Shown in pieces: positions 2,787-38,600 of a stretch of 44,132 nucleotides of DNA (position 1 is its first letter; every line of letters starts with the position of its first letter). Below the pieces are notes generated by a model. The model worked only from the letters and a program-made list of their open reading frames with translations, did no database searches and had not been told where the DNA came from. The stretch comes from a virus. Position numbers and translations under genes: made by a program. The stretch covers positions 1 to 44,132 of IMG/VR virus record IMGVR_UViG_3300037493_001428; one strand, given 5' to 3'.

Positions 2787-2791
2787 TAACT

Positions 2792-16014: not shown

Positions 16015-16024
16015 TACTATTGAA

Positions 16025-19462: not shown

Positions 19463-19493
19463 CTAATCTGATTATAAAGAATTACCAAAACTT

Positions 19494-19512
19494 ATTATCA
19501 GTGTTTGATAAT
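19494..19512 (+). terminator. Hairpin downstream of the cargo gene, possible terminator
   Basis: ATTATCA and TGATAAT form a perfect 7-bp stem with a GTGTT loop, 31 bases after the stop codon. No U-tract follows, so it is at best a weak intrinsic terminator; it could equally be an mRNA-end or processing structure. Confidence 0.35.
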
Positions 19513-19526
19513 CTAATATAATCCAT

Positions 19527-19543
19527 TAAATTTGCTAACCACA
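19527..19543 (+). promoter_or_regulatory. Candidate phage promoter motif (copy 1)
   Basis: TAAATTTGCTAACCACA matches 14 of 17 positions of the motif at 42620-42636 in the other long gap. It lies about 30-50 bases before the ATG at 19575. The Bacteroides consensus (TTTG, about 19 bases, TAnnTTTG) is not met at the right spacing, so a phage-specific promoter or operator is the better guess. Confidence 0.45.
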
Positions 19544-19574
19544 TGTAAACTTTGCATGTACAAAAATAACTACT

Positions 19575-22193
19575 ATGGCCTCATGGACAGATAAAATCCC
19601 TACCTTCAATCCTTATGTTCAGCAATTGCCTGTAGAGGCAATGGTTGAAGTGGGTATGCAGAAGCAAAAGCAATACAATGAAGGGATTCAAAAAATACAA
19701 ACCAACATTGATAATATTGCTGGTCTAGATCTTGTTAGAGATATAGATAAATCTTATTTACAATCTAAGCTTAATCAATTAGGTAATGATACAAAATATT
19801 TAGCTGCTGCTGATTTCTCTGATTTTCAAATGGTTAACTCTGTAACAGGTATGGCTAATCAAATTGGTAAGGATGCTACTGTTCAAAGTGCTGTTGGAAA
19901 TACAGCAAAGTATAGAAGAGAGATGGCACTTGCTGAAAAGTTTAGAAAAGAGGGTAAGTCATCTGCAAATAGAGAATATGATTTAAGTGTAGCTGCTAAT
20001 AGTTGGATGGATAATCCTGATCTTAATGCAGGTTTTTCAGGAAAGGCAAAACAATATCATGATGTAGATAAAAAAGTTTTAGAAGTGATTGGTAAATTAT
20101 CTCCAAAGATTGATATTAAAGACATACCTTATAATGTTATAAAAAACAAAGATGGTAGCATTAACTATAATGGTATTTCTGCTGCAATGCAAAAGATAAC
20201 TAGCAGTGAAATTTCACCAGAACAAATTAGAACTGCTGTAAACTCAATGCTTGATTCAAATGATCTTGATGAACTTGCTTCTCAAGGAAGATATAACTAC
20301 AGAGGATATGGAGTGGAAGAGCTTCAATCATCTGCTACTGCAGGATATGAATCTAGTAAATTACAATATAAAGGTAATTTAGAAAGATTAAAACAACAAC
20401 TACTTACCACTACAGATCTTGGTCAACAAGAAGAGATAAACAAGTCTATCAATTTTTATACAAAGCAATTAGGCGATGGGACTACACCAGGAGAATTACA
20501 ATCTTCATATGAACAACTAGTATCTTCTATTTCTGATAATCCAGATGGAGCTAGATCTATGCTATACAAAAAGAACTGGTTAGATCAAATAGCAAATGGT
20601 TTCCAACACAGAGATGTAAAAGATGAGATTGTAGAAAACCCATTAAGAAAAGATTGGTGGGAAGGCAAGAAGTTTGAATTTGATCAAATCAAAGAAGCTA
20701 ACAATCAGGCATATCGTAAGAGAACTTTGGAACAAGGTGATCGTGCTCTTGATATAAAAGCAATAGAGGCACAAACTAAAGCAGACAAGGATAAAGGAAC
20801 ATATGATCCATTCTTTCAAAATAGTGGAAATCCTTCTACAAGTAATTTGGAGTCAATGAACAATTACCTAAATTATAATTCACAGTTGGCAAGTACAAAT
20901 GATCAAATATTATCATCCCTTGCAAATGGTGCATCTTCATTAACAACAAAGGTTTCACCAGACATTATTAAAACAAACATTGACAAGTATAGAATTGGAA
21001 AGTATGCTCCTAAAACAATGGATGAGAAGAGAATGTTTGATCAATATATCCAGAATCAAAACACTCTTGACACTCAAGCAGCAATGCTTGCTGAAATAGA
21101 AGACCAAGAATATAGAAAACTTACAGGGGATAAGAAAGGATATGAGCAAGCAACTAGTCAACTTTTAAGTAAGAATGGTAATTTTTCTGTATACTCAGCA
21201 GGTACAAAATATACATTCACTCCAAAAGAAGTGTATAATTATTTGAAAAAAGAAAAATCAAAAACAGTTGGTTCATCTGGTAGCTCAATGACTCCTATGA
21301 GCAATATGTCTCAAACTACTTTTACATATGTTGATGATGCTTCTCTTACAAAAAGAGAAAAGTTATTAAAAGCTGCATTTGCTAAAAGATATAATAGTGC
21401 AAATACAAGTACAGGTAATGCTGCAAGTGATCAGTATATCTCTGGAATAAAAACTATAATTAATAGAAATAAACCTGTTGAAACTGCAGTTGCTACAAAA
21501 GTTGCAGATAGACTTTCAACTATTACAGGAGGATTTAAAACAGAACAGTCTGCTTTGAAGTTTAAAGATACAAACTGGAAAGCTAATTTTGCTAGTGATA
21601 TGGCAAACATTGCTTCAGCAGACATGCGAGAAGGTACAGCAGGCAAAGAGTACGATCCAAAGAAAACGCTTGGTTGGTTAACAAAAGATGAGATTGGAAA
21701 TATTGATTTTCAATTCAAACGACAAGGTACTCAATATTATGTACACGTCACCAATAAAAGTGATGATGGAAAGACACAAGTTGTACCAGTTACATTAGAC
21801 TTTGTTAGAAAGAATCAAAGTTTAGGTGAGAATTACCTGACTCCAAATCCAGACTTAGGAGAAGTGACATTAAGAAATAATAAAACTACAAACATATTGA
21901 AAGATTTTAAACATGCACATCTTCCAACAAGTAAGTTTGGTGGAATGAATTCTGTAGGAAATAGAACAGTAACTTTACCAGTTGCTGCAGACTACAATGT
22001 TGGTAATGATGGAAACATTTATGCAGTAATTAAACTTTTAACTAATACAGGAAATTGGTTAGAATTCAATGTTCCATATGCTATAGATAAAAACGAATTT
22101 GAAAGTCAATATCTTCCATCCATGAATGATGGAAAAGTTATAGCTTTATTTAAAACTAAATATCCAAATATTGAACAATTAATTTCTAGATAA
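19575..22193 (+). CDS. Conserved crAss-like cargo protein
   Basis: An 872-residue protein beginning MASWTDKIPTFNPYVQQLP, a start I associate with a conserved internal virion protein lying just ahead of the giant polymerase gene in crAss-like phages. Residues about 20-300 are helical and partly coiled coil (EVGMQKQKQYNEGIQKIQTN, RYNYRGYGVEELQS). Residues about 300-620 remain helical and charged. Residues 620-872 are more mixed, with beta strands near the C-terminus (QYYVHVTNK, NWLEFNVPY). There is no signal peptide, membrane segment or enzymatic motif. First gene after the candidate promoter at 19527, and coupled to the next gene by a TAATG overlap, so the two products are likely made in fixed ratio. 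Function unknown; packaging into the capsid or tail as an ejected protein is inferred from context. Confidence 0.62.
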   Translation: MASWTDKIPTFNPYVQQLPVEAMVEVGMQKQKQYNEGIQKIQTNIDNIAGLDLVRDIDKSYLQSKLNQLGNDTKYLAAADFSDFQMVNSVTGMANQIGKDATVQSAVGNTAKYRREMALAEKFRKEGKSSANREYDLSVAANSWMDNPDLNAGFSGKAKQYHDVDKKVLEVIGKLSPKIDIKDIPYNVIKNKDGSINYNGISAAMQKITSSEISPEQIRTAVNSMLDSNDLDELASQGRYNYRGYGVEELQSSATAGYESSKLQYKGNLERLKQQLLTTTDLGQQEEINKSINFYTKQLGDGTTPGELQSSYEQLVSSISDNPDGARSMLYKKNWLDQIANGFQHRDVKDEIVENPLRKDWWEGKKFEFDQIKEANNQAYRKRTLEQGDRALDIKAIEAQTKADKDKGTYDPFFQNSGNPSTSNLESMNNYLNYNSQLASTNDQILSSLANGASSLTTKVSPDIIKTNIDKYRIGKYAPKTMDEKRMFDQYIQNQNTLDTQAAMLAEIEDQEYRKLTGDKKGYEQATSQLLSKNGNFSVYSAGTKYTFTPKEVYNYLKKEKSKTVGSSGSSMTPMSNMSQTTFTYVDDASLTKREKLLKAAFAKRYNSANTSTGNAASDQYISGIKTIINRNKPVETAVATKVADRLSTITGGFKTEQSALKFKDTNWKANFASDMANIASADMREGTAGKEYDPKKTLGWLTKDEIGNIDFQFKRQGTQYYVHVTNKSDDGKTQVVPVTLDFVRKNQSLGENYLTPNPDLGEVTLRNNKTTNILKDFKHAHLPTSKFGGMNSVGNRTVTLPVAADYNVGNDGNIYAVIKLLTNTGNWLEFNVPYAIDKNEFESQYLPSMNDGKVIALFKTKYPNIEQLISR

Positions 22194-25100
22194 TGGAAAA
22201 CGAAGAAACAATGCTTCCTATCAGTCCACTAACTGAAAACTTTTTACCTACCAATAGAATACTTCCAATGGAAAGTCAAGACGTAGCTCCTTATAGAGGA
22301 GTTAGTCTAGAAAGAAATACAGGTGGTCCAGCTGATAACTTTATGCCTCCTATGGCTAAAGGTGATTCACAGTTACCAGACATGGTGACAACTGGGCAGT
22401 TATATGGAGCAAGAAGATATCCTGTCTATGATGCAAATAAAACAGAGAATGAATTTGCTTATGGACAAACATGGATGGACCAAGCTAGAAATGGTATTCT
22501 TAAAGGTTTAAATCTTACAGCAACAACTGTTGTAGGAGGTTTTGCTACTGTTGGAGGATTGATTGCTTCCCCTTTTACAGGTCGTCTTTCTACTATTTGG
22601 GACAATCCTTTAATGAATGAGTTGGACAAATGGAATGAAAAAGTAGATAATGAATATCTTCCTAATTATTATACAGATGCTGAGAAGAATGCTGAATGGT
22701 ATTCTAGAGATAACTGGTGGACACCCAACTTCTTATTTGATAAAGTAATTAAGAACTCAGGATTTGCTGTTGGAGCAATGATTTCTGGTAATATTGCTAA
22801 TGCTGCATTCAAAGGATTGGGTGCTCTTGCAGGAGCATTGGCTAGTGAAGGAGCTATTGCTGCTGAAGCATCACAGTCATTTAAACTATTTTCTCCATTA
22901 TTAAAAAATACAGCACGAGCTTTTTCTAATGGTAAAAACGTTGAAGCTGCACAACTTCTTAAGAGTGAAATAACTTCTATTGCTGATGCTACACAAAGAA
23001 CATCAAAGATGGCTGAGATTGCAAAGCAAGGAAATCTTTTTGCAAAGATCAATGATGCAGGAAGAAGAACAGCAATTGCTACATACTCATCTGCAGGAGA
23101 AGCTTCGTTTGAAGCATTGCAAACTTCAAAAGAATATAGAAACAATCTTATTGAGAAGTATAAAGCAGAACATGGTGGAGAAGAACCAAAAGATGCTCAA
23201 TTAGAATACATTAATGAGCAAGCAGATGTCGTAGGTAAAACTTCATTCCTTGGTAACTTAGCCATCTTATCTATTACAGAGAATGCACAACTTAATAAAT
23301 TATTAGGAAGTTCATATGCTGCAGACAAACAAGCTGCAAATAGTTTGTTTGGAGAAGTAGATGATGTTCTATTGAAAGCAGATAAATATGTAGCAAAGAC
23401 TCCCACTACAAAGTTTGGTAAGTTATATGATAAAGTTACAGGTGTAGGTAAGTATTTCTTTGATCCTAAAGAGGGAGCTCAGGAGATTGCTCAATATGCT
23501 TTACAAGTAGGTACAAAAAACTATTGGAACAAGGCTCATGAAACAGATGATGCTGATGCTTGGGTAGATGGGGCACTTTATGGAATGTTTGGAAAAGATG
23601 AAGCTGGTGAAGGAGTTGGTGCATTTGTTTCTAAAGAAGGTATGGAAGGTGGATTTATTGGTGCACTTACTGGTGGTGGTATGCAAGCCTTTTCAAACTA
23701 TGGACAAGGTAAAGCTAAAAGAGAAAATACAAATAAATTTTTAGAACAACTTAATGATGCTCCTACATTTAAAGAAGCATTTAAAGATAGAATTGATTCT
23801 GCAAATAGAGGTGTGGTACTTCAACAACAACAACAGTCTGCTGTTATCCAAGGAGATAAATTAGAAGCAAAAGATCTGAATACAGATTTAATGCATAACT
23901 ATTTAGCTCCACGTATTAAGTATGGTAGATTTGATATGGTGATGGATGATCTTGCAGAGTTGAAACAAATGGGAATGTCAACTGAAGGACTTAGTGAACT
24001 TATAAATCAAGGAGTTGCTAACACTAATGATACAGTGCAGTCTTTTCAAACTAGACTTTCTAATTTTGAAAATGTAGCAAAAAATACTCAAGAGATATTT
24101 AAGTTTAATGACTTAGCATATAGTGGGGAAGTTTTAAAAGATAAAGATGGTGTGCCAATTTTAAAAGATGGTAAACCACAAAGAAAATATACATCTGCTG
24201 CAATTATGCAGATGAACTATGCTGCTGCAAAAGTAGCTGATTATGATCTTCGTATTCCAGAAGTATCTATGGGACCTATTAGTGCAGGTGTTCTTGTACA
24301 AGATATTATAAATCAAGAGCTTACAGATCCTAAATCTAAAGCACTTGAAACTGAGGTGGCTAAGATTAAATCAAGTAAAGAAGTTAAAGCCAAAGAGACT
24401 GCTCAACAATTAACAGACGTTGTTGAGATGTCAATGAGAAGAAAACAATATCTTGATGAGTACAATGACATCATTGCTGCTCCACAGAAATATGCTGATG
24501 CTAGAGAAGAGTTTATAAAAAACTTAACAGCTTCTGGACAAGTTCCTGGACAAGCTCCTGAAACAATTACTATCAAAACAAAACTTGGTGATAGAGACAT
24601 TGAGATTGGAACTGATTACTTCTTAGGAAAAGTTGTTGAATATGATAAACAAGGTAGACCTGTAAATCGTGCACCTATTGTTAGAATTCTTGGAGAAGAA
24701 GATGGTAAAATTAAAATGCAGGATGTTAAAACTGGAGAAATAACTTTAGTTAGTCCTGATGCAATTGAGGATTACAAACTTGGTAAAGTTAGTGATGCTA
24801 CACAAAAAGATATTTGGATTAATAATAACTGGAATACAGTATTTCAACATAGAGGAATTAAAAATAAAAAAGGTCTTCCTATTGAAGGACGTATAGAGAA
24901 TCATCCTAAACAAGGAATGATGTACTTTGTATATACAGATGATAGAGGAAGAGTTCAAAAAATTCCTGTAAAGAATTCTGACTTTGTAGCTAAAGAAGGT
25001 TACAAGCGAGGAATGATTGCTCCTAAACAAAAACTTGTTGCAACAGAACAACAAACATTGGAGAAAATCTTTTCTGCAAAAGAGAGAGCAGCTCAGTCAT

Positions 25101-28100
25101 TAAGAGAGCAAGCTATTCAAGCACGTAATGAAGTTATCTTAGAACTATATGATGAGAGTGTTCAACGTATAGAAGATATAAACAAAGAGCTTGATAAAAC
25201 TCAAAACTCAATTGAGAGTGTTGAAAAACAATTAGCAGAAGAAGTTGCAAAGATACCTAGCACTAAGAAAGGTGTTCCTAGCAAAAGAGTTGCTAAAGCT
25301 CTTAGACAAACTATTGATGCATTAGGAAAAAGTCTTGAGAGTCTTAGAACTATAGAAGCTGATTTACAATCTGAAAGAGAAACTGTAGAAGCTAGTCTTC
25401 CATACATTCAATCTTTCATTGATGAATTAACTGAGGCTCCTGAAGATAACAATGATCTTATTGCAAAACTAAAAGGTGATGTTTCTATATTAAAAGATTT
25501 AGCTAAGATTACTACTGAGTCTATTGAGAAGATTGGTGAGTTGTACAAAACAGCTGAGAGTTTATTACAAGATGCTCTTGAAGAATTGAATGACTTTATC
25601 AAAGAGCTTAAAGAGAAGAATCCTAACATGCCTATTTTTATAGAAGACTTACAGGCTAATGTAGAAAGATTTTTAGGAGAGCAAGGAGCTGAACAATATA
25701 TACAAGATAGATTAGGATTTACTAATCAAGTGAGAGAGTTTGAAGATCAGATAACTGATCTTGAGAACTATCTAGAACTTCCAGGTCTTACAAAGAATGC
25801 AGATAAACTTAGACAAAGTCTCTCAGAGTTAAAAGAAGGACTACAAGCATTCAGAGGAGAGCAAGCTGCTAAAGAAGCAATTATTGAGAAGTTTGAAGCA
25901 TACATTGAGAAAGAGAAACAAAAGAAAGAAGAGGAAGAAAAGGTTGCTAAGAATAAAAAGATTCAATCAGAACTCTTAGGAACAGCAGATTCCAATGCTA
26001 TTCAGAACGAGAAGTCTGATGGTACATTTGAAAGTGATGATAAGAAACCTAACAGCATAATTCCTGAAGCAACTATAACTACTGGTGATAAACCTCACGC
26101 TGTTAGATCAAATGCTTTTGGAGCAAAGATGAATTCATTTGAGAATAGAGATGAAGTTCGTGGTGTACACATCACTTCTAAAAATGAAGATGATCTTATT
26201 CCAGGACTTACAGATCATTTAAGAAAAGATGATGATGATGTAGTAGATCAAGAGATTGATGGAGATAAAATCATTGCATTGGTGATGGTTGATAGCGAAG
26301 GTAATCTTCTCGATGTCAATGGTAAAAAGATTGAACCAATACGAGAAGGTGAAACTAAAGAACAATATGATCAAAGAGTTTTAGACACAGCCATCTATCA
26401 AGTTATGCCATTGGAGAAACTTCAATGGGGTCCTAAGTATGGAAATAAATCTATGTTTAGAGAAGGAACTTCTGAACAATACAAAGATGAAGTTCGTAAG
26501 AAATATGCAGCTTGGAGAAATGAAACATTAGAGCAATCTAATGTTGGTCCTCTTCATACAGTTGATGCATCTTTTGGTAGAGGGGAAATGGTACAGATAG
26601 AAGATGAGAAAGGTAATTTGAAAAATGATTACACTGCTAAAACATCTGTACAAAGTGCTGGGCTTATATCAGAAGAAGATCTTGCAACCACTCCTTTAAT
26701 TCACATTCCTAAAACAAATGCCACTGCTGCCAAGAAAACCACGTCATTTAAAAATGCACTTGGTCAAGTTTTCTTGGAGTTATCAAATGGATTTGTAAAA
26801 CTTAGAAACAGACAACATAATGAGAAAGAAGCTAAGGTGATTTTTGATTCATTAGTGATGCTTTCTAAATACATGATGGATAAATCAAAAGGTCTTAAGA
26901 GTGATGAGGCAGTACGTCTTCTTACATTCTTGAAGTCTTCTGTATATTGGGGTATTCCTGAGACACAACAAAAGGTTAGAAAAGCTGCAGGATACAATAG
27001 TATATTCTTTGAAAGAGATGCTGACACTGGAAGAATGATGTTGAACCTTTCTGGTAAAGGAATGGATTTTGTATTTACACCATCAGGTCTTTTGGAGAAC
27101 GAGGATACTATCCTTGGTATGTTAGAAGGAATGTACAAAAACGTAAACTCCTACATGACACAAAACCTAAATGAGTCATACGAAGAAATAACAGGTATTG
27201 GTCCTGATGGAGAAGTTAAATCTAACATATGGCCTAACTACCAAACATACTTACTTTCAAATAAGAATGCTAATGGTTCAGAGAGAGCAGCTGATGAAAT
27301 CCCTGTTACAACATTACTCAGACCTTTAGAAGGAGAGAATGATGTTAATAGAAAGAACATCTATTTCTTTACAACAGATAATGCAGATACATTTGCTACA
27401 ACTGTTTCTCCAGAGAAAGCTGCACCAGCTGTAATCACTCCAGGAATGCCAAAAGCAGCACCTGCTCCTGCTGCTGTTAAAGATGGTAAACAAGTTTTAA
27501 TTGATAATATACAAGCTAGAAAAAAAGCAGTACTTGCTAATGCAAAAACTGAAGAAGAGAAAGCTAAAATTAATGAGGACACTAATCAACTTTTAGAGAT
27601 TATAAACAATGCAAAAGTTGGAATCCCTGGACAATTTGTATTAGATGGTGAAACACTTAATATTCAGATTGGTAATACAGGAAACATGATTGTGTTTACA
27701 GCTGAATCAGGAATCACTGCAGAGAACTATAACGATAAGATTAAAATCAAACCTGCACTTGGTGATGTTATGAATATTGTTGAGATAGTGAAGAAACAAC
27801 TTAACATAGATCAAGCTGGAGCAGTTGATAACATAAAGAAAAGTTTAGCAACTGTAGTTGCTCAACAAGAAGCAGCTCCTGTAGTTGCTCCTGCACCTTC
27901 TCAAGAAGAGTTTGATGAATATGAACCATATGTAGAACCAGCGTTTGAAGAAGGTGTACAAGGTGGAATTGATCAAGCTAGTCAGAATGCAGGTAAGCCT
28001 ATTAGCAATTCAGTTAAGTCAATTATAAATTCAAAAAGAAAACCTAGTTCTAAAAAAGCTAGACGTGAAGTAATTGTACAAGATTTAAACAAATTCAAAA

Positions 28101-31100
28101 AAGAAGATTGGAACAAAGTGGAAAGATGGATTAAAGCTGTCCTTCCTAATATTCCTGTGTATAGAGTTAAGAATGTAATCCAAGCTACTAATGGAAAACA
28201 AGCTTGGGGTATGTTCCACAATGGTGCTGTTTACATTTATGAAAATGCACAAGTGGGAACAGCGTACCACGAGGTATTCCATGCTATATGGAGAATGTTC
28301 ACTGACACTAAAGAACAGGAAGCAATCTACAATGAATTTAAAAATAGAAGTGGTAAGTTCTTTGACAGAACTTCTGGTCAAACAATCAATTATGCTGAGG
28401 CAACAATTGATCAAATGGAAGAAGCTCTTGCTGAGGAATTCAGAGACTACGTACATGAAGGAAAGAAACCAGGTAAACCAAGCGATGGTAGACCTTTCAT
28501 TCTTAAAATGTTCTCTGATCTTGTAAACTTCATTAAAAAATTATTCTTAGGTAAAGAATCTGCTTCCTTAGTAGAGGAATTGTTCAAGAACATAAATCAA
28601 GGATCATACAAAGCAAGCATGCCATTCTCAAAAGAACTTGGGTATGCATCAAAAGGAATCATTGACATTGATGATATCTCAGGAGATGATGAGAGTGCGT
28701 TCAGTCTTGTTGAGATGGGAGACATTCAAAGAAATGAAATCCTTCAAGAGATGACTTATCAAACGTTGTTACAACTGATTGATAGTGATCAAGACTTGTT
28801 TGATATTCCTAACATCAAAAGATCTACAATCTATGAAGGACTTTATGGAAAGATCCAAAACATGATTGCAGAAGGAATAGACATTGCTTCAGAATTAATG
28901 ACTGAGCCTGAATATCAAACTCCAGAATTACAAAAACAATTACAAGACGAGATTGCTAACATTACACAATTGATGCAACAAGTTGAAGATAGTTGGGAAA
29001 GTATTATGGATAGACATCAAGAATACTTGAGAGGATATTCAATTACATTTGACGAGAATGATGAACTTGCATTGAATGATGATGAGAAAAGTAAAGAAGA
29101 TCCTTTTGGAGATTCAACTAAAATAGATCATTTCAAAAAGGCAAACGCTGCAATTAAGTTATTATTGTCAACTGTTCCTATGTTAGATGAAAATGGAGAC
29201 ATGAGAGTATCTTCAGTGGGTGGAGCAATCCTTATGCCAGTTAGTCAAACATATATTAGTGTAATGAACAACGTTCATAATTCTAATAACATTGAAGACA
29301 TGTTAGAGAAGTTACGTCAAATGGCAGTGTATGATCAAACATATGCTGTACTATATGATCGTATTACTAAATCATCATATAAACTTGAAGGATTAGATCT
29401 TAGCAAAGTTAAAACTGTACATGGTGCAAAACTTATTGATGCTTTCTTTAATACATTCAAGAAACAAAATCCTGATGTTAAGAATGTATTCATTCTTAGC
29501 AATGGAGAAATTGTTGTAGGAGAAGCTAATCTTTCTAGTGCAGCTTCCCAATTGAGAGCTGAGTATATAAATCAAATCATTACAAAAGCTAAAGAAGGAA
29601 AAGGTTTCTTTAAATATAATACCACTAAACAAGTTTATGAAGTTAATTCTGATAAACTTAAAAAATATCAAGTAGGTGATGCTATGCAAATGCTATCTTT
29701 CTTAAAAGAACTTGGTGTAGATTTTACAGGAAGACAATTCACAAAATTAAACGATGTCCAAGCTTCTATATTTAGAGATGCTGTATCTGGTATTAGATCA
29801 AGTATAGCTAATGCTCAAGAAATTAAAAACTTCTCAAGCAAAACTTTGGACATGGAGAAACGTTTGTTTCAACTTGGTTTATTAAAAGCTTCTATAGACA
29901 ATCCTCAGTTTGACAGTACATTCTTTAATGTGTCTGGAGAACGTACACAATCATTTGTTGGAACTAATGCTGCAAGTAACTTATTTACATTCCTTAGCAA
30001 CCTAACTGCTTTTACAAAAGATCAATTAGCTGGAACTAACTTTGCTTATTTAGGAACTGATTCTTTTGTAGAAGGTTCTTCTTTATTGAAAAGAAAATAT
30101 ACAGCTGATGGAAAAATTATTTCAGGTTCAGAAGATTTATTAACTGTAGGATATGTAGGAGGTATTGTAAATGAAACCAATGGTAAAACTAAACCATCAT
30201 CAAAACTAGATTATAAAAATCGTCTTGTACAAGAATTAAATCTTAACTTGAAAGGTTGGTATCTCAATCTTGTTCCTGGAGATGCATCTTTGGAATGGAT
30301 GATTAAAATGGGTAACCCAATTTCTGCAGTTAGTCTTACTAGAGGATTTGGAGAAGTACATGAGTTATTCAAAGGATATTTTCTTTCTGAATTAAAACTA
30401 GCTAGAGAAGATCGTCCTATTGCAAATGTAAAAGGAAGAAGTACCAATGATATGCGATTCTTCAAGTCTATTCTTGGAGAGGTATTACATACTGAGATAA
30501 TTAGTTCTAGTGAGTTAGTTGAAGAAGTTTATGCACAATATGAAAAGAAAATCAATACTGCATTAGACAAGTTTATTGAAACTCAAAAAAATAAATTTGT
30601 TAATACGTTAGTAGAATATGGTATTGTAAAACCAGAAGGATATGGTTATACATTAGAAAACCTTGATCTTCCTAAAGGAATGATTGAGGCTGAGTTCAAT
30701 AGACACATGAACATGCTTACAGTTAATTTCTTTGTGGCAAACATTGAGATGCATAAGTTGCTATACTCAGATCCTTATCAATATTCTGATGAGTTGAAAC
30801 GTATCAAAAACTTTAACTCATCTGGACAACCCCTTATGAATAGTTCACCAAAAATGAATAAACTTTATAACACTGTGTGGAATAAAGGATACAAAAGAGG
30901 TGACATAGGATATACAAACTTTACACAAGAGCATTTCAAAACAGCTACACATGCTGACGTTAATGGTATTGTAGATCTTCCAAACTATGATAACTATAAA
31001 GAGACTGATGGTGCTGGTATGATTTCATTCAAAGCACATCGTCAGTTTAGAATTAGATCTTCTAATTGGAATTCTAATGAAGAAGCACAATATAAATATG

Positions 31101-34100
31101 ATGTAGCTTGGGAAAAAGTTGATAAAGGAATTAAATTAAATCCTGGTGAACAAGAGATATATGATCTTGGTAATCCTGAAGTTAAGAGTGCATACACTCC
31201 TTCTAAACCTATTGCTCGTGGAAACAAAGCAAATGGTAATAACTACAATGATGTTGTATTAGATAAGTTCGCTCTCTATCCTGTTTCATATAGAGTGATG
31301 AAACAAATCAACCCAACTTCGAACATGGTTAAACTTTATAATAAGATGCAAAAAGAAAAGATCGATTATATTGTATTTGAAAGTTCTAGAAAAGTTGGAG
31401 TGGATAAAGCTCATGCAACATATAATGCAGAAGATTCTAGTTTCAATGAAACTAAATATGCTAAACGTACAATTACAAACGTACCATTCTCAGTGTTATA
31501 CGTACAGGCAGAAGTTCCTTCTAAAGATATAGATGTGGTTACACGAGGTTCTCAGGTAACTAAACTTATCACCATGGACTTCTTGGATGCTGGTGTACCT
31601 ATTGACTTTGAAATAAAAAATAGTAGTGGGGAAATAGATACAAATTTCACCAACAGATATGAAGCTTGGTTTAGATTATCTGAAGAACAGAAGAAAGAAC
31701 AATCTGATGTATATAAAGAAATTAAAAACAATGAAGACTTATTAGTTGCATTGATAAAGAATGGTTACAACAACCTTCTTAAAACTTTAGGTATTTCAAA
31801 TGTAAATGGTGAGTTTAAAATTATAAATTTCAATAAATCTGCTACAACCTTACGTAACGAGATTCTAAAAAGAGAAGTTAATGATAACATTAGTGATGCT
31901 TTAAAATCTTTCTTAGAAGGTAAAGCTATTCTTGAAGCTACTCCTGCATATCAACAAGTTAGAAATATTCTTTATTCTATTGCTGATAGAGAAGTTGTTT
32001 CTTCTAAGATGCCTGGTGGTATGAAAGTACAGATTCCTTCTACATTGTTAGAGTCTGTTCGTGCAAAAGAAGTTGAAGTTAATGGTAAGAAAGGACTTGC
32101 TTCTGATGTTCTTAATTTCTATGAGAAAGATGGCAAACGTGTATGTGAAATCATGGTTGGTAGATGGTTCAAGTCAGATTTATCTGATGATGAATTATTA
32201 GATTTATGGTATAAAAAAGATAAAAAAGGTAATAGAACAGAAGAATTAACAGAAGAAGGAGAAAAGATTTTGTCAGGACTTGCATATCGTATTCCTACAC
32301 AGAAACAAAACTCTATTGATAGTTATGTTATTAAGCAATTCCTTCCAAAAGAATTTGGAGACTCTGTTGTTATTCCTGCTGCACTTGTTGCTAAAGCTGG
32401 ATCTGACTTTGATATTGATAAGTTGTCCATTTATTTCAAGAATGTAAAAATTGGAAAAGATGGATTACCAAAATATATTGAATTCCAAGACAATAGTAAT
32501 TCAACTGTAGAAGAACGTTATGTAAAATATGTTTCTGAGAATACACCAGACTACAAAGACATTGTAAAAGACTTTAGAGAATCTGAAGAGTTTGCTACAA
32601 AGAATAAAAAAGTTGATAGTGCATTTGAAACTGTTGGTAATGAAAGACAGAAGTTAGGTGAGGTCAAAACAGAAATAGATGATGCATATGAGATTGGCTA
32701 TGAATCATTTAAACAACTTCCATTAGGAGTGAAACAAGTGTTTTGGGAAGTAGAGAGAGATTTAAGGGAAGAAGATATAGATGGGTTACAAAAGAATCTT
32801 TTCTATGCCAGTATTGCTGAAAAATTATTATCAGAAGTAAGTGGTAAGGAAACTGTTACACTTGAACAAATCATTAAATCTAAAAATGGTGAAACCAAAA
32901 CTGAGAAAGTTACAGTACCTGTTGAAGAGATTGTTCCACATTTAGAAGCAATGTTAGAAAACTATAAAGAGATGAGTGCTCTTTATGGTATATCTAATGA
33001 ACAATTTCAAAAAATTACAAGCAGTTTAGCAAATGCTAAGACTATAAAAGAAATACTAAACGATAGATATAAACTTGAAGTGGCCAAAGTTGTTGCTGAG
33101 TTTACAAACTTAGACAGCTTAGAAAAATTTGGTCAGAGAAAAATGCAAGACCAGAATACCAGAAAAGCGTTAGAGAATGCATATACACAATCTTCTCAAA
33201 ACCTTGTATCTCATCCTAAGAACTACGACAGACTTATTCAACCTAACTCTGCAGAGCAATTAAAAGGATTAGCTAAGTTTGTTGCTGAGAAAACTGCTGG
33301 ACAATCTTTTGATTATACAGATGTTGGTAACATGCTTGATAGAACATTCATGTCTAAATTAAGACATGCGTTTGTTAGTGGTAAGTATGCAATTGGTATT
33401 GCTGCTGTAAACCAAACTAACCACTCATTGAATCAACGTCAACCTATCTTTATTGACATAACAAAAATCAAAGACCTACCTGAATCAGATAGATATTGGT
33501 TAGGTAATGGAAGAGTTACATTTGAAGCATTCAACAAACTTGCAGTTGGTGGATATATCTCTCCAATATTCTCTATGGCTAAGAATGCTGAGAGAAGTGA
33601 AGAGTTTCCTGAAGGTCAAGATATCTCTGATATCCTTGCACAGTTTATTGATGGATATGTGGATATCTCTAAAGGTCCATGGATCATGGAACTTGGAGCC
33701 ACTTCTAATGTTGCTTCTACATGGATGACATTAGTTAAACTTGGTGTGCCTATTGAGACAGTTACTTACTTCATGAATCAACCAATTATTCGTGACTACT
33801 TAAAATCAGTTGAAACTGCTGGATATTCATATTTATTCATTGATGATTTTGTTAGTGAATCAATGAAAAAATATGCACCAAAAGATCAAAAGAGAACACC
33901 TCAAGAATGGAAGGATGCTAAAGAATCATTCAAAGTCCCATCGAAAGATGTTTTGAAAAATCTTGTTGGTGAGGATGTTTCTAAAATGGATAAACAACAA
34001 TTAGAAACACAGCAATTGATGTTATTGGAATTTTTGAAATATGCTAAGATGGCAGAGCAAATGTTCCAAGTAACACAGGGATCTAACTTTGATACAGCAA

Positions 34101-35686
34101 CCTTGAATGATCCATCATTGGTATTCAAGAAAATAAAAATGCTTGAGAAAGCACAAAAAACAATCATCTCTTCTGTTGATGAAAATGGTAAAACTATACC
34201 TGGTGTAGATGCATTATTAAAGAACTCGTTCTTAGGTGAGATGGGAGAGTCTATCATTAATATGAGAGAAGCTCTTGCTCAGATATTAATGTCTGACAGA
34301 CCAGCAATTAGAAAAGTTATTGAACAAGTGCTAACTCCATACCTTGAAACTCCTGATAGAGAGTTTGTAAAAATTGCACAGAAAACTGTTAATGATCTTT
34401 TTGATTGGGCTATATTCACACATGATGGATACGCTGATTTAATAAAATCAGAGTTGATTAAAGATGGTGGCACTGCAAAACAAATCTATGAGTTTGCAAA
34501 AGAAGTTAAAGATGATCCAAATCATCCTTTACATGATAACTTTGTAATTAACATATTAGAATACAAACCTTCATCAAGACCTGGAGATAGTGTAAACAAT
34601 TTAAAAATCAAAGGTGTAGATAACAAAACCTTTGATCAGAATAACATCATTGGTGCATTCAGACAAATAAGAACATACATTGCTAATCAAGAAGCATTAG
34701 GTAATAAAAAAGATTCAGCTATATATAAAGGACTAGTTAATGTGGCAATTTTACAATCAGGACTTTCTAACTCTCCTATATCATATACATCTTTACTTCC
34801 TTATGAAGATTTTGCAGAGGTTTATAATCCAACTCTTTCTAAGTTAGAGAACTTTGGGAACTTAGATTCATTTGTTAACTTAGGAGTGTTTGCAAGAAAC
34901 AACTGGAATAGTGATACGTATGTTCCTAGTTCTGTTGCAAGATGGCTTTCTATTACAGATTACATGGGTAATAGAAACTCTATCTATAATCCATCTATGT
35001 ACTTTCTTCCTGAAGCTGTAAAAGATGCTGTTTCAAATGGAGAGATTCCACAAGTTGTAACACAGTCAGTAAGAAACTCAGGATCAAGTTCTGATTATAT
35101 AACATTCTCTTGGGAATTACAAACTGAGATTTTGACAGCTGATGAACTAAAAGCTGCACAAGATAAAGGTGATGTAATGGCTGCAGTATTTGCTAAAAAG
35201 AATGCTCTACGTAAAGCAGGTGATTATTCATTTATACAAAGAGGATTATTTCAAAAAGTACGTGATAGTTTTGGAACACCATTAACTACAGAGGATAGAA
35301 AAGGTAAAGAATACTTTGTATATAAAGCAATCAATGCTTGGGGTGATTCATTTAGAGCTAACGAGTTCTACGATGTAGATAAACAATCAGTGATTGAAAA
35401 TGGAATGATTAAAGTAAATCCTGCAAGTGATAACTTAATCATTGATATATTCAGAGGAACAAGACCTATGGTTGGAGCAGTCACTGCAACAACACCTATA
35501 GAAAGTGTTTCTTTGAAAGGTGCATTTAATGGATTAAATGAATTCACTCTAGAACAAAAATCACAAATTTTATCTAACTTTGCTATCAAGCATGGACTTA
35601 CTTCAGAGCAAGCATTGAAAGACATTAATGCAGCACTTAAAAAGGATCGAGCTACTGCAATCGAACAATTAAAAAAATGTTACTAA
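22193..35686 (+). CDS. Giant 4,497-residue virion protein: ejection region, zincin metalloprotease and DxDxD RNA polymerase
   Basis: This single frame joins several activities. Residues about 90-510 contain Gly/Ala-rich hydrophobic stretches (about 109-129, 190-226, 480-500) typical of ejected membrane-active proteins. An SH3-like beta segment spans about 800-863 and a long coiled coil about 943-1250. A zincin metalloprotease lies at about 1990-2120, with H2026EVFH2030 and E2077 or E2081 as third ligand. The RNA-polymerase region centres on D3405FDID3409 within KAGSDFDIDKLSIYF, the Mg-binding loop matching DFDGD of cellular beta-prime subunits, preceded by RIPTQKQNS and followed at about 3729 by GKYAIGIAA. 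The crAss-like phage phi14:2 gp66, a virion RNA polymerase of about 2,200 residues, is the family reference; this protein is about twice as long. It would be injected to transcribe early genes. Proteolytic release of the polymerase is an inference. Confidence 0.85.
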   Translation: MENEETMLPISPLTENFLPTNRILPMESQDVAPYRGVSLERNTGGPADNFMPPMAKGDSQLPDMVTTGQLYGARRYPVYDANKTENEFAYGQTWMDQARNGILKGLNLTATTVVGGFATVGGLIASPFTGRLSTIWDNPLMNELDKWNEKVDNEYLPNYYTDAEKNAEWYSRDNWWTPNFLFDKVIKNSGFAVGAMISGNIANAAFKGLGALAGALASEGAIAAEASQSFKLFSPLLKNTARAFSNGKNVEAAQLLKSEITSIADATQRTSKMAEIAKQGNLFAKINDAGRRTAIATYSSAGEASFEALQTSKEYRNNLIEKYKAEHGGEEPKDAQLEYINEQADVVGKTSFLGNLAILSITENAQLNKLLGSSYAADKQAANSLFGEVDDVLLKADKYVAKTPTTKFGKLYDKVTGVGKYFFDPKEGAQEIAQYALQVGTKNYWNKAHETDDADAWVDGALYGMFGKDEAGEGVGAFVSKEGMEGGFIGALTGGGMQAFSNYGQGKAKRENTNKFLEQLNDAPTFKEAFKDRIDSANRGVVLQQQQQSAVIQGDKLEAKDLNTDLMHNYLAPRIKYGRFDMVMDDLAELKQMGMSTEGLSELINQGVANTNDTVQSFQTRLSNFENVAKNTQEIFKFNDLAYSGEVLKDKDGVPILKDGKPQRKYTSAAIMQMNYAAAKVADYDLRIPEVSMGPISAGVLVQDIINQELTDPKSKALETEVAKIKSSKEVKAKETAQQLTDVVEMSMRRKQYLDEYNDIIAAPQKYADAREEFIKNLTASGQVPGQAPETITIKTKLGDRDIEIGTDYFLGKVVEYDKQGRPVNRAPIVRILGEEDGKIKMQDVKTGEITLVSPDAIEDYKLGKVSDATQKDIWINNNWNTVFQHRGIKNKKGLPIEGRIENHPKQGMMYFVYTDDRGRVQKIPVKNSDFVAKEGYKRGMIAPKQKLVATEQQTLEKIFSAKERAAQSLREQAIQARNEVILELYDESVQRIEDINKELDKTQNSIESVEKQLAEEVAKIPSTKKGVPSKRVAKALRQTIDALGKSLESLRTIEADLQSERETVEASLPYIQSFIDELTEAPEDNNDLIAKLKGDVSILKDLAKITTESIEKIGELYKTAESLLQDALEELNDFIKELKEKNPNMPIFIEDLQANVERFLGEQGAEQYIQDRLGFTNQVREFEDQITDLENYLELPGLTKNADKLRQSLSELKEGLQAFRGEQAAKEAIIEKFEAYIEKEKQKKEEEEKVAKNKKIQSELLGTADSNAIQNEKSDGTFESDDKKPNSIIPEATITTGDKPHAVRSNAFGAKMNSFENRDEVRGVHITSKNEDDLIPGLTDHLRKDDDDVVDQEIDGDKIIALVMVDSEGNLLDVNGKKIEPIREGETKEQYDQRVLDTAIYQVMPLEKLQWGPKYGNKSMFREGTSEQYKDEVRKKYAAWRNETLEQSNVGPLHTVDASFGRGEMVQIEDEKGNLKNDYTAKTSVQSAGLISEEDLATTPLIHIPKTNATAAKKTTSFKNALGQVFLELSNGFVKLRNRQHNEKEAKVIFDSLVMLSKYMMDKSKGLKSDEAVRLLTFLKSSVYWGIPETQQKVRKAAGYNSIFFERDADTGRMMLNLSGKGMDFVFTPSGLLENEDTILGMLEGMYKNVNSYMTQNLNESYEEITGIGPDGEVKSNIWPNYQTYLLSNKNANGSERAADEIPVTTLLRPLEGENDVNRKNIYFFTTDNADTFATTVSPEKAAPAVITPGMPKAAPAPAAVKDGKQVLIDNIQARKKAVLANAKTEEEKAKINEDTNQLLEIINNAKVGIPGQFVLDGETLNIQIGNTGNMIVFTAESGITAENYNDKIKIKPALGDVMNIVEIVKKQLNIDQAGAVDNIKKSLATVVAQQEAAPVVAPAPSQEEFDEYEPYVEPAFEEGVQGGIDQASQNAGKPISNSVKSIINSKRKPSSKKARREVIVQDLNKFKKEDWNKVERWIKAVLPNIPVYRVKNVIQATNGKQAWGMFHNGAVYIYENAQVGTAYHEVFHAIWRMFTDTKEQEAIYNEFKNRSGKFFDRTSGQTINYAEATIDQMEEALAEEFRDYVHEGKKPGKPSDGRPFILKMFSDLVNFIKKLFLGKESASLVEELFKNINQGSYKASMPFSKELGYASKGIIDIDDISGDDESAFSLVEMGDIQRNEILQEMTYQTLLQLIDSDQDLFDIPNIKRSTIYEGLYGKIQNMIAEGIDIASELMTEPEYQTPELQKQLQDEIANITQLMQQVEDSWESIMDRHQEYLRGYSITFDENDELALNDDEKSKEDPFGDSTKIDHFKKANAAIKLLLSTVPMLDENGDMRVSSVGGAILMPVSQTYISVMNNVHNSNNIEDMLEKLRQMAVYDQTYAVLYDRITKSSYKLEGLDLSKVKTVHGAKLIDAFFNTFKKQNPDVKNVFILSNGEIVVGEANLSSAASQLRAEYINQIITKAKEGKGFFKYNTTKQVYEVNSDKLKKYQVGDAMQMLSFLKELGVDFTGRQFTKLNDVQASIFRDAVSGIRSSIANAQEIKNFSSKTLDMEKRLFQLGLLKASIDNPQFDSTFFNVSGERTQSFVGTNAASNLFTFLSNLTAFTKDQLAGTNFAYLGTDSFVEGSSLLKRKYTADGKIISGSEDLLTVGYVGGIVNETNGKTKPSSKLDYKNRLVQELNLNLKGWYLNLVPGDASLEWMIKMGNPISAVSLTRGFGEVHELFKGYFLSELKLAREDRPIANVKGRSTNDMRFFKSILGEVLHTEIISSSELVEEVYAQYEKKINTALDKFIETQKNKFVNTLVEYGIVKPEGYGYTLENLDLPKGMIEAEFNRHMNMLTVNFFVANIEMHKLLYSDPYQYSDELKRIKNFNSSGQPLMNSSPKMNKLYNTVWNKGYKRGDIGYTNFTQEHFKTATHADVNGIVDLPNYDNYKETDGAGMISFKAHRQFRIRSSNWNSNEEAQYKYDVAWEKVDKGIKLNPGEQEIYDLGNPEVKSAYTPSKPIARGNKANGNNYNDVVLDKFALYPVSYRVMKQINPTSNMVKLYNKMQKEKIDYIVFESSRKVGVDKAHATYNAEDSSFNETKYAKRTITNVPFSVLYVQAEVPSKDIDVVTRGSQVTKLITMDFLDAGVPIDFEIKNSSGEIDTNFTNRYEAWFRLSEEQKKEQSDVYKEIKNNEDLLVALIKNGYNNLLKTLGISNVNGEFKIINFNKSATTLRNEILKREVNDNISDALKSFLEGKAILEATPAYQQVRNILYSIADREVVSSKMPGGMKVQIPSTLLESVRAKEVEVNGKKGLASDVLNFYEKDGKRVCEIMVGRWFKSDLSDDELLDLWYKKDKKGNRTEELTEEGEKILSGLAYRIPTQKQNSIDSYVIKQFLPKEFGDSVVIPAALVAKAGSDFDIDKLSIYFKNVKIGKDGLPKYIEFQDNSNSTVEERYVKYVSENTPDYKDIVKDFRESEEFATKNKKVDSAFETVGNERQKLGEVKTEIDDAYEIGYESFKQLPLGVKQVFWEVERDLREEDIDGLQKNLFYASIAEKLLSEVSGKETVTLEQIIKSKNGETKTEKVTVPVEEIVPHLEAMLENYKEMSALYGISNEQFQKITSSLANAKTIKEILNDRYKLEVAKVVAEFTNLDSLEKFGQRKMQDQNTRKALENAYTQSSQNLVSHPKNYDRLIQPNSAEQLKGLAKFVAEKTAGQSFDYTDVGNMLDRTFMSKLRHAFVSGKYAIGIAAVNQTNHSLNQRQPIFIDITKIKDLPESDRYWLGNGRVTFEAFNKLAVGGYISPIFSMAKNAERSEEFPEGQDISDILAQFIDGYVDISKGPWIMELGATSNVASTWMTLVKLGVPIETVTYFMNQPIIRDYLKSVETAGYSYLFIDDFVSESMKKYAPKDQKRTPQEWKDAKESFKVPSKDVLKNLVGEDVSKMDKQQLETQQLMLLEFLKYAKMAEQMFQVTQGSNFDTATLNDPSLVFKKIKMLEKAQKTIISSVDENGKTIPGVDALLKNSFLGEMGESIINMREALAQILMSDRPAIRKVIEQVLTPYLETPDREFVKIAQKTVNDLFDWAIFTHDGYADLIKSELIKDGGTAKQIYEFAKEVKDDPNHPLHDNFVINILEYKPSSRPGDSVNNLKIKGVDNKTFDQNNIIGAFRQIRTYIANQEALGNKKDSAIYKGLVNVAILQSGLSNSPISYTSLLPYEDFAEVYNPTLSKLENFGNLDSFVNLGVFARNNWNSDTYVPSSVARWLSITDYMGNRNSIYNPSMYFLPEAVKDAVSNGEIPQVVTQSVRNSGSSSDYITFSWELQTEILTADELKAAQDKGDVMAAVFAKKNALRKAGDYSFIQRGLFQKVRDSFGTPLTTEDRKGKEYFVYKAINAWGDSFRANEFYDVDKQSVIENGMIKVNPASDNLIIDIFRGTRPMVGAVTATTPIESVSLKGAFNGLNEFTLEQKSQILSNFAIKHGLTSEQALKDINAALKKDRATAIEQLKKCY
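28160..28560 (+). other. Intact zincin metalloprotease domain inside the giant RNA-polymerase protein
   Basis: Residues about 1990-2122. GTAYHEVFHAIW supplies HExxH (2026-2030), and MEEALAEEFRDYV about 46-51 residues later supplies the acidic third ligand. It is followed by an amphipathic hydrophobic helix (FSDLVNFIKKLFLG). All residues expected for zinc-dependent catalysis are present. Confidence 0.78.
32390..32440 (+). other. RNA polymerase catalytic loop DFDID
   Basis: D3405, D3407 and D3409 form the DxDxD magnesium site of two-barrel (DPBB) RNA polymerases. Flanking AKAG and KLSIYF strands fit the double-psi beta-barrel loop. Confidence 0.85.
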
Positions 35687-35687
35687 T

Positions 35688-38600
35688 ATGAGTTGTGTTA
35701 ATCCAAATAATCCAGAGTTTCAAGAATTAGTTAGAAAGACAGGAAACTACTTGCTTGCTGAGATAGAGTTTACAAAAAATTCTCCTATCATTCAGAGCAA
35801 TGGAAAGTTATTAAATCTTCCTGAAGAAGCAAAGCAACGCATATATGAGAACTATGTAAACCTAATGGACAGAAAACGTGAAGGTAAAGCTATCACGTAC
35901 AAGTCATTTATTAAAAGCGTTTATAATAACTTACAAGTTTTTAAATCAAAAGACACATATATTTTTGGTGAGTGGGATAGAAACAATAATGTATTCAAAG
36001 GAAGATTCATGTCTTCCCCAAACATTAGAGAGATGTATGGTGCATTAGATGAGTTAATGGACATGGTTAACTTTGCTGCATCTGTTCCAGAAGATATTGG
36101 ACGTATGCTTGAAAAGAAAGGTATGTACAAACTTAATGTTGGTAAAGAATATGACTTCAAAGGAGAGCAAATGATTAAAAACATTTACTTCTCAAATGAA
36201 GAATTAGTTAGAAAAATATTTAAGAAAGAGGTGAGCGACATCACTGAACAAGATGTTAGAAAATACGACAAATTTTTTAACTATAAGTCTATACTTTATA
36301 AATTGGAAAAGCAATTTAATAAAGGTAAGTTTGATGAAATCTACAATACATTAAAAGAGTTAGGGATTTATGATTACAATGCTTACAAGATTCTTAACAA
36401 ATTCAAACAGTTAGATAAAAACTTTACTCCTGAAGAACTAGAAAAGTTTAAAGCAGAGAATGCAGAATTATATTTCACTCCACAAGAGAAACAGAAATAT
36501 AAAATCTATAAAGAATACATGCAGATCATTAATAGTGTGAAAGATCAAATCGCATCTAATAGTGCATCTAATATGGTTAATATAGATAGAACAGATATAT
36601 TAAACAATCCAAAGATTTATAGTCAACTTGACACTGATTTAAATAAAACTTTAGCCACCTACTTATCAAAGTTTGGTATTAAGACAGAAGTTTTAAAAGA
36701 CATGCAAGATAAATTAGGAATTGATTCATTTGCACATGTTGATATTCTTAATAAGATATTATATACATCTGAAACAAATCAAGGAGAATACCCTCAACAA
36801 GCAGGAAAGTTAATTGCGTACATGATGCAACATAATCCTCTTGTAACAGAGATTATGGCAAACATGAAACGATCTTCAATGTTTGGAAGTAAACTTAGTA
36901 AGGATGATTTACTAGATGTAATTGGTGATTTAATTGCAGAACAACTATACAATAAAACAAACACTCAAGTTCCACAATCAATTCTTGATAAAATTGGAAT
37001 GTTGATTAGACAGTTCTTTCAATTCCTAACAGATGTAAGACTTTCTAGAATTAATAAGAACGTTGGTATAATTGCTGAGAATGTATTGATACAAAATCAA
37101 TCGTTGATTACTTTCTCTCCATTTAAACCTGGAGCATCTGGTAAAGAAGTTGTAAGAGTTAAGTTTCAAGAAGCATTAGATAAAGATCGTTTTGCTACAG
37201 CAATTGTAGATAGAATGGCTGATAAGTTTATTCTTGGAGGAAGTATTTCTTTTTCTGAACAAGGTCCTGTTTTGAGACCTGATGAAAACCAAGTTCATGA
37301 TTTGGATTGGGTTTCTCCATATACAAGAAACACCACTGTAAAAGAATTTGAAAATCTATATCCTGAAGGACAAAGAGTTTATATTAGAGAGATAAACGAT
37401 AAGGATACTGGAGAATGGACTGACACATGGTTAGTGTGTGAAGATGGACATACTATACAGAACTTGGTACTATCAAATGATGGCAAGAATAAAGTTCTTG
37501 CTTATGACATTGTTAGTGATGAGACTGGTGAAGTGGTTAGTAAATACATACCAAAACCAGAATCTCATTCAGGAGATATAGAAGCTAAACCTATTGATAT
37601 TTTCTCAAGTGATGGACAACCTAAAGAAAAATATGGCACTCAAGATTTTACTACCACTTCAGGAACTGTAGTTAAACTTGGAAACTGGAGAGCGTCATTT
37701 GAGGCTAAACTTAGATATGGTCGTTTAAAAGATATTTGGGATTATAATAGATTCATTCCTGATGAAAACATCTATCAAGGAGAGCCTGCAGAAACTAACT
37801 TCCAATTGGAAGGCATGCCTATGTCTGCTGCTAGTGAGCAAACTCTTGCAAAAGTCAAAGAGCTTATTGCTAAAATGGGAGTTAGTATTGAGTCACTTTT
37901 AGAATATGCAAAAAAATCTAAACTGAATCTTAAAGATGTAAATGCTGTGGCTGACATGGTCCATGGTATAATTGCTGTAGCTGAAGGAAAAGAAAATGTA
38001 TCTCTTACAGAAGAGATGGTGCACATTGCCACTGCTATATTACAAGCAAAGAATCCTAAGATGATTACAGAGATGATTGCTAAGATTGATCGTTTCAAAA
38101 TATACAATCAGACACTAAAAGCATATAGAGATAATCCTGACTATCAACTTCCTAATGGTAAACCAGACATTCGTAAGATTAAGAAAGAAGCTGTCGATAA
38201 GTTGATAGCTGAATTAATTGTTAATGGTGGGCAAGATATTGCTCAATACCCTGAACTATTAGAAGAGGAGAATCAAAACTTAGTTCAACGTTGGTGGAAT
38301 GCCATCATGGACTGGTTCAGAGGAATGTACAAATCTACAAACGTTAGTATATTCCAACAGACTGCTGACATTATTATGAATGATCAATTAGAAGGAGACT
38401 TCACAGACATTCAGAATAAACAAATCTACTATCAATTAAGTGCTCCACAAGAAGCTATACAAAAAGAAGTATTAGATAGACAATCTAAAATAAAGAAAGT
38501 AGAGAGTGGTGAGAAAGTTGATCCAATGTTTATGGACACTGAAGAAGCTAGTAACTGGTATGAAATTCAAAACGAAGAAGGTGTTTTTAAAAGAATTGAG

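Follow-up and report, generated by a model that had tools for sequence, protein, structure and literature searches.

The giant gene and its neighbours

The window, that is the whole stretch of DNA analysed, is a linear IMG/VR contig of 44,132 bp that contains a giant ORF with an ATG start, a stop at its end and no internal stop over 4,497 codons (Table 1). A sequence-only reading of this DNA had described the same uninterrupted frame, with DFDID at residue 3405, and both are confirmed here. About 60 IMG/VR contigs have a full-length homologous ORF (3.7-4.9 kaa), so that the frame is no assembly accident. The giant gene sits in a virion/transcription block beside large cargo genes, in the same order as in phi14:2, cr108_1 and cr55_1, and the genes upstream of it match PHROG virion structural families. 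From the RNAP block, we infer that the window virus belongs to the order Crassvirales.

The 2,291-aa protein encoded downstream is a homologue of cr108_1 gp52 (HMM E 1.3e-62) and, by its position, a candidate equivalent of phi14:2 g065 and crAss001 Gp49. Further upstream, a 1,900-aa ORF (window 10312-16014) has segments resembling LysM/transglycosylase proteins alongside others resembling endolysins (PHROGs 9611, 833 and 4602) and is probably a virion-associated wall-degrading protein. General searches with the giant protein were uninformative: no family was matched in Pfam and PHROGs scans, phmmer against the PDB gave only a chance coiled-coil match, and a family scan restricted to the N-terminal half retrieved no relatives, its patterns probably lying in poorly conserved parts.

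Table 1. Coordinates of the genes, protein regions and codons discussed in the text
Feature	Position in window	Strand	Description and evidence
Upstream ORF, 1,145 aa	16025-19462	+	Cys-free; candidate channel/cargo protein in the place of crAss001 Gp45/Gp46, role by position only
Upstream ORF, 872 aa	19575-22193	+	Cys-free; candidate channel/cargo protein in the place of crAss001 Gp45/Gp46, role by position only
Giant ORF, 4,497 aa	22193..35686	+	Fusion of a Gp47-like half (N-terminal) with a virion RNA polymerase of the Gp50/gp66 type, as judged from ORF scan, HMM and structure
Residues ~80-795	22430..24577	+	Homologue of the N-terminal region of Gp47, a virion cargo protein of crAss001 ("RNAP subunit")
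Candidate membrane segment, residues 105-128	22505..22576	+	Only strongly hydrophobic stretch of the giant
Probable coiled coil, residues ~931-1210	24983..25822	+	E/K/Q/R-rich, significant heptad periodicity
Zincin-like segment, residues ~1950-2110	28040..28522	+	YHEVFH at 2025-2030 and conserved EExLAEEF
Two-barrel RNA polymerase core, residues 2700-3890	30290..33862	+	AlphaFold2 model, Foldseek, VIA-align to 6VR4
DFDID catalytic motif, residues 3405-3409	32405..32419	+	Invariant in 49 relatives
Codon of Cys4496, penultimate residue	35678..35680	+	Proposed C-terminal coupler; 65/65 relatives have a Cys among their last 6 residues
Downstream ORF, 2,291 aa	35688..42563	+	Third member of the set; starts one base after the giant
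Codon of Cys3 of the 2,291-aa protein	35694..35696	+	Proposed N-terminal coupler; 65/65 relatives have a Cys among the first 6 residues of this protein

Regions of the giant protein

The relationship of the polymerase region to phi14:2 gp66, expected by the sequence-only reading for residues of about 2600-3900, was recovered at three levels. By tblastn, residues ~2830-3868 match phi14:2 g066 (E 9e-9); with a profile of 45 relatives (HMM), residues 3210-3870 match g066 (E 1e-23) and residues 3040-3920 match crAss001 Gp50. An AlphaFold2 model of residues 2700-3890, built from 49 sequences (pLDDT 81.2, pTM 0.75), had 6VR4 (phi14:2 gp66) as its sole significant Foldseek match (E 3.8e-25) and was aligned to it by VIA-align over 810 residues (Z 18.5, rmsd 3.2 A), the next-best matches being the RNAi polymerases RDR2 and QDE-1 (Z about 11-12). 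As modelled, the giant contains a two-barrel RNA polymerase of the phi14:2 gp66 kind, and the double-barrel fold foreseen around DFDID is borne out. By homology to the gp66 family, the protein would be packaged in the virion and would transcribe early genes. Shortly after DFDID, the giant carries ~130 extra residues relative to L005 and L006 (residues ~3432-3656, window 32486-33160). The DFDID codons of cr108_1 (L001) enclose a group I intron at 23485-23803 (Rfam RF00028, 80 bits), and at the corresponding site cr116_1 (L010, 12150-13150) has a small ORF, gp50, which is probably a homing endonuclease.

The N-terminal half is of the Gp47 type. Residues 129-634 match crAss001-type Gp47 by tblastn (E 2e-12), and the profile of 45 relatives matches Gp47 as a whole (E 3.6e-62) through residues ~80-795 and 1880-2140; the first of these regions is also homologous to Leptolyngbya phage XAI97382. 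Membrane-active stretches had been announced for the frame: one strongly hydrophobic stretch was seen (residues ~105-128), next to residues 129-201 that are 51% identical to crAss001 Gp47, and no second strong one. Heptad periodicity agrees with the coiled coil that had been described, at a length of ~250-280 residues by sequence instead of 300; this region is missing in the relative L006.

Judged by homology, the giant gene is thus a Gp47+Gp50 fusion. The earlier statement that gp66 is about half its size is accurate (2,180 aa), and the suggestion that size and fusion are special is not: giant fused polymerases of the same arrangement are already known in Crassvirales (cr55_1, 4,551 aa; cr118_1, 4,946 aa), fused crAss-like virion RNAPs are described in the literature (PMC10136315, PMC7886860) and crAss RNAP genes reach ~6,000 aa (PMC10136315). 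The proposal that conduit formation, processing and transcription were gathered into one ejected polypeptide fits insofar as a polymerase is fused to Gp47-type cargo; a conduit role would follow from Gp47 homology only. In crAss001 the channel-forming proteins are expected to be Gp45/Gp46 (PMC10172136), and the candidates for their counterparts are separate genes in the window too. In the following, A denotes the Gp47-type protein, R the polymerase and B the downstream protein; tail and head denote C-terminal and N-terminal peptides.

The zincin domain of the sequence-only reading was recovered as a motif, HEVFH at residue 2026, with a conserved EExLAEEF on a later helix as a possible third ligand, in a segment that corresponds to the C-terminal part of crAss001 Gp47 (HMM). 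However, HExxH, present in the giant itself, is not kept among close relatives, 44 of 62 having HExxE with E as the second ligand. The model of the segment was weak (pLDDT 64.8) and no zincin was found among its best structural matches, VIA-align giving helical-bundle matches only (Z 6 or less). Its identity as a protease is doubtful. A cis-acting protease at the fusion point that cuts A from R after entry, with the giant as a polyprotein precursor, would be compatible with the covalent train proposed below and could make use of HEVFH and EExLAEEF. The motif is present in 90/110 A-R fusions versus 14/62 split versions, in a regular-expression search confounded by phylogeny, and in the split relative L089/L160, compared with L091 and L050, the ~300-residue zincin segment is lost and is replaced by tail and head peptides that bear Cys. 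These two observations are suggestive only. The HExxE of relatives, the unconfirmed zincin fold and the HEAFH retained by the unfused crAss001 Gp47 argue against such cleavage, which we consider rather unlikely.

Cysteine depletion and terminal cysteine pairs

A feature missed by the sequence-only reading appears more telling, namely the near-absence of Cys and the pairing of the terminal Cys with that of the next gene. The giant contains only two Cys, C3318 and C4496, in 4,497 residues, when ~73 would be expected at the 1.6% of related-phage enzymes; its DNA has 2 TGY codons in frame versus 66 and 329 in the other frames. In the same phages, the Cys content of transcription-block proteins is 0.12%, compared with 1.62% for cytoplasmic enzymes (a 13-fold depletion) and 0.90% for outer virion proteins. 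Proteins of the window clade have 58 interior Cys in 265,218 aa. Of 40 large transcription-block and other proteins, 19 end with a Cys within the last 6 residues versus 0.24 expected. A compositional quirk of long proteins would accommodate the members with more Cys, but the depletion relative to enzymes of the same genomes, the many TGY codons in other frames of the same DNA and the concentration of the remaining Cys at the ends make this reading hardly credible.

The purging is not absolute across crAss-like phages. Some gut phages of the Intestiviridae and Steigviridae type have 10-26 interior Cys in R or R+B; several such loci, with few Cys in A, were observed among L183-L208 (Intestiviridae type) and L104-L117. 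The habitat or host redox environment may lie behind this difference among members. As for ejected proteins of the unrelated podophages N4 (L286), T7 (L287) and P22 (L288), no Cys was found in N4 vRNAP (3,500 aa), gp51 and gp52, in T7 gp15 and gp16 or in P22 gp7, gp16 and gp20, and T7 gp14 has Cys2 only.

Family scans of IMG/VR gave a census of 80 window relatives and ~190 loci of other crAss-like groups, from which a non-redundant set of 196 loci was used for the pair counts, starts being taken as the first ATG. The C-terminal Cys of the upstream neighbour and the N-terminal Cys of the RNAP were both present in 48 loci, both absent in 30 and discordant in none (78/78), and the C-terminal Cys of the RNAP and the N-terminal Cys of the downstream protein were both present in 145, both absent in 5 and discordant in 1 (150/151), these counts not being independent events as the genomes share ancestry. 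In the sole discordant locus the neighbour is another kind of gene. The N-terminal Cys set against the fused state gave 2/92 versus 69/1, the three discordant cases being misclassified by length or interrupted ORFs. Among the apparent exceptions, L128, L124 and L180 were misclassified by the length cut. In five loci (L241, L272, L114, L115 and L117) the Cys of the A tail is found roughly 15-35 residues before the end and not in the last 12. First proteins have no N-terminal Cys and last proteins no C-terminal Cys, and the 1,145-aa and 872-aa upstream ORFs of the window are outside the Cys chain.

The pairs follow the gene breaks. In phi14:2, g067 ends with C1797 as its last residue, g066 has C3 and C2179 (of 2180) and g065 has C3; in crAss001, Gp47 has C2339 (of 2341), Gp50 has C5 and C2404 and Gp49 has C5. 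Fusions lack a pair at the fused junction and keep the next one, as C4496 and C3 in the window and C4943 and C3 in cr118_1; in Rudgehvirus, in which R and B are fused, C2017 faces C3 and the fused protein has no C-terminal Cys. Terminal Cys are lacking in single-ORF versions (L134, L147, L148, L155, L140 and L213, 5,472-5,677 aa; L143, 4,627 aa), which contain 0-3 Cys in all, and the four-protein versions L246 and L285 have one extra pair. L089/L160, split inside a clade of fusions, gained a pair (...IKKCKG followed by MGVCPN...), and at this extra break L089 has a tail and head of the same kind as at its next junction. Once the rule had been formulated, it was tried on 18 TAG-recoded loci, for which table 11 yields no usable ORFs: translated with TAG=Q, 18/18 have the R C-terminal and B N-terminal Cys. 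The gut phages with many interior Cys also obey. The intron break of cr108_1 carries no Cys pair, nor does the break in L204 and L279, where the RNAP gene is in two ORFs; the latter is probably an intron or a sequence error (frameshift) and not a boundary between two proteins. Over more than 200 related genomes, the rule is nearly exceptionless: one Cys pair per real break and none per fusion.

In Leptolyngbya phage Lbo-JY46 (L016, a cyanobacterial phage), the region 14755-27661 includes a protein of the Gp47 type (HMM E 2e-51) and follows the same rule, a protein of 1,552 aa ending in C preceding one of 2,748 aa with C4; a DFDxD motif was searched for in this second protein and not found. A DNA-level artefact such as a programmed frameshift or an overlapping signal was rejected: in crAss001 and others, A is encoded kilobases away from R and on the opposite strand, and the rule, since it holds there, is no local DNA effect. 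A literature search on disulfides and cysteine in crAss-like phages returned only the crAss001 tail/portal disulfides and no terminal-Cys pattern, with a mention in the phi14:2 RNAP paper being possible; as far as the literature was searched, the pattern is new, no prior description having been found.

The giant might also be an ordinary fused crAss-like virion RNAP whose terminal Cys have another local role, as a packaging signal, in portal or scaffold binding or in homodimer disulfides. The known fusions (cr55_1, cr118_1; PMC10136315, PMC7886860) speak for this. Against it, the partners are present or absent together (48/30/0 and 145/5/1), both are lost where the genes are fused and both gained where they are split (L089), and the outer ends of the first and last proteins are without Cys. 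Since neither independent roles nor homodimers would give an all-or-none pairing, we regard this explanation as improbable.

Tails and heads also vary together. With Cys masked, tail and head similarities are correlated (r 0.77; partial r 0.77 given core and body similarity; 0/5000 permutations), the value for tail versus core being 0.16. Near-identical cores can carry different tail and head sets (L058/L063, L043/L044, L019/L038), and head types changed at least 27 times on the tree of 65 cores. The exchanged unit is a matched tail/head set, the bodies remaining unchanged. Because tail and head adjoin in the DNA of most genomes, the covariation may partly be cassette exchange and this linkage keeps it from being, alone, proof of pairing. 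Where A is encoded on the other strand (14 genomes), the correlation of A tail with R head is weaker (partial r 0.57, versus 0.35 for the non-cognate A-tail/B-head) and confounded by phylogeny, and it lends weak support to pairing.

A proposed covalent train and known systems

We propose, and consider probable, that the polymerase proteins A-R-B form one covalent train, each junction being made either by gene fusion (here A-R) or by a link from a C-terminal Cys to the N-terminal Cys of the next protein. In the window, C4496 of the giant would be joined to C3 of the 2,291-aa protein. The train would be carried in the capsid, pass through tail and envelope in a partly unfolded state with the N-terminus first, and transcribe early genes inside the cell. 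The link would most likely be an interchain disulfide that arises in the virion and undergoes reduction once in the recipient cytoplasm, which would free the subunits; we infer this bond, the timing of its formation and reduction, the exit as one unit and the direction. A single chain would guarantee order and a 1:1:1 stoichiometry. Any other Cys would form wrong links within an oxidised particle, which would be the reason for their purging, at least in the window clade. More generally, it is probable that in every crAss-like phage the polymerase machinery is delivered as one covalent train, in which fusion is interchangeable with a head-to-tail disulfide between terminal Cys of evolving tail/head docking peptides and which the reducing cytoplasm uncouples. 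The crAss001 cargo is located in the capsid, Gp45 is expected to be ejected N-terminus first with partial unfolding, and other virion proteins of this phage are joined by disulfides proven by cryo-EM, the Gp47/Gp50/Gp49-type cargo proteins not being resolved in that structure (PMC10172136).

The same pairing rule would result if the two Cys were joined otherwise, by thioester/amide ligation or a shared metal site, to give a permanent polypeptide, and some heads have Cys at residue 2-3 after Met removal. But the Cys is mostly at residue 3-7 and not the exposed N-terminal residue that ligation needs, no intein-like domain is visible, one Cys per side provides two metal ligands only, and virion disulfides are proven in crAss001 (PMC10172136); such chemistry appears very improbable.

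The disulfide-linked train, if true, would represent a new means of assembling ejected multi-protein cargo and of releasing it, and bears on the question of how polymerase proteins of 200-600 kDa pass a narrow tail in the right order and stoichiometry. The Cys rule predicts the cystines Cys2339-Cys5 and Cys2404-Cys5 in crAss001 and Cys1797-Cys3 and Cys2179-Cys3 in phi14:2. It would explain why these genes fuse and split freely, can serve to distinguish a real gene break from an intron or a frameshift, and indicates the redox state as a switch that would release the polymerase. Taken with the absence of Cys from ejected proteins of N4, T7 and P22, the rule suggests that phage proteins destined for injection are under a general constraint.

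Compared with known systems, the giant shares with phi14:2 gp66 (6VR4) a two-barrel single-chain RNAP, DFDID and a penultimate Cys; gp66, however, is a separate protein with Cys3, whereas in the window the g067-type partner is fused and the junction Cys is absent. The same terminal-Cys logic is found in crAss001, whose Gp47 corresponds to residues 80-795 and 1880-2140 and whose Gp50 corresponds to residues 3040-3920, but there three genes lie on two strands, where the window has two adjacent genes. Among Suoliviridae, cr55_1 gp070 and cr118_1 gp14 have the same fusion order and a C-terminal Cys, a zincin-like motif (at 2001 and 1734, respectively), a DFDID-type motif (3445 and 3209) and a next protein with Cys5 and Cys3, yet their similarity to the giant is remote (E about 1e-16 to 1e-19). 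Finally, N4 vRNAP, which belongs to the T7-like fold family, and the tape-measure-fused RNAP of P23-45 are likewise giant ejected polypeptides that carry a polymerase into the cell, and N4 vRNAP is also Cys-free, like the nearly Cys-free giant.
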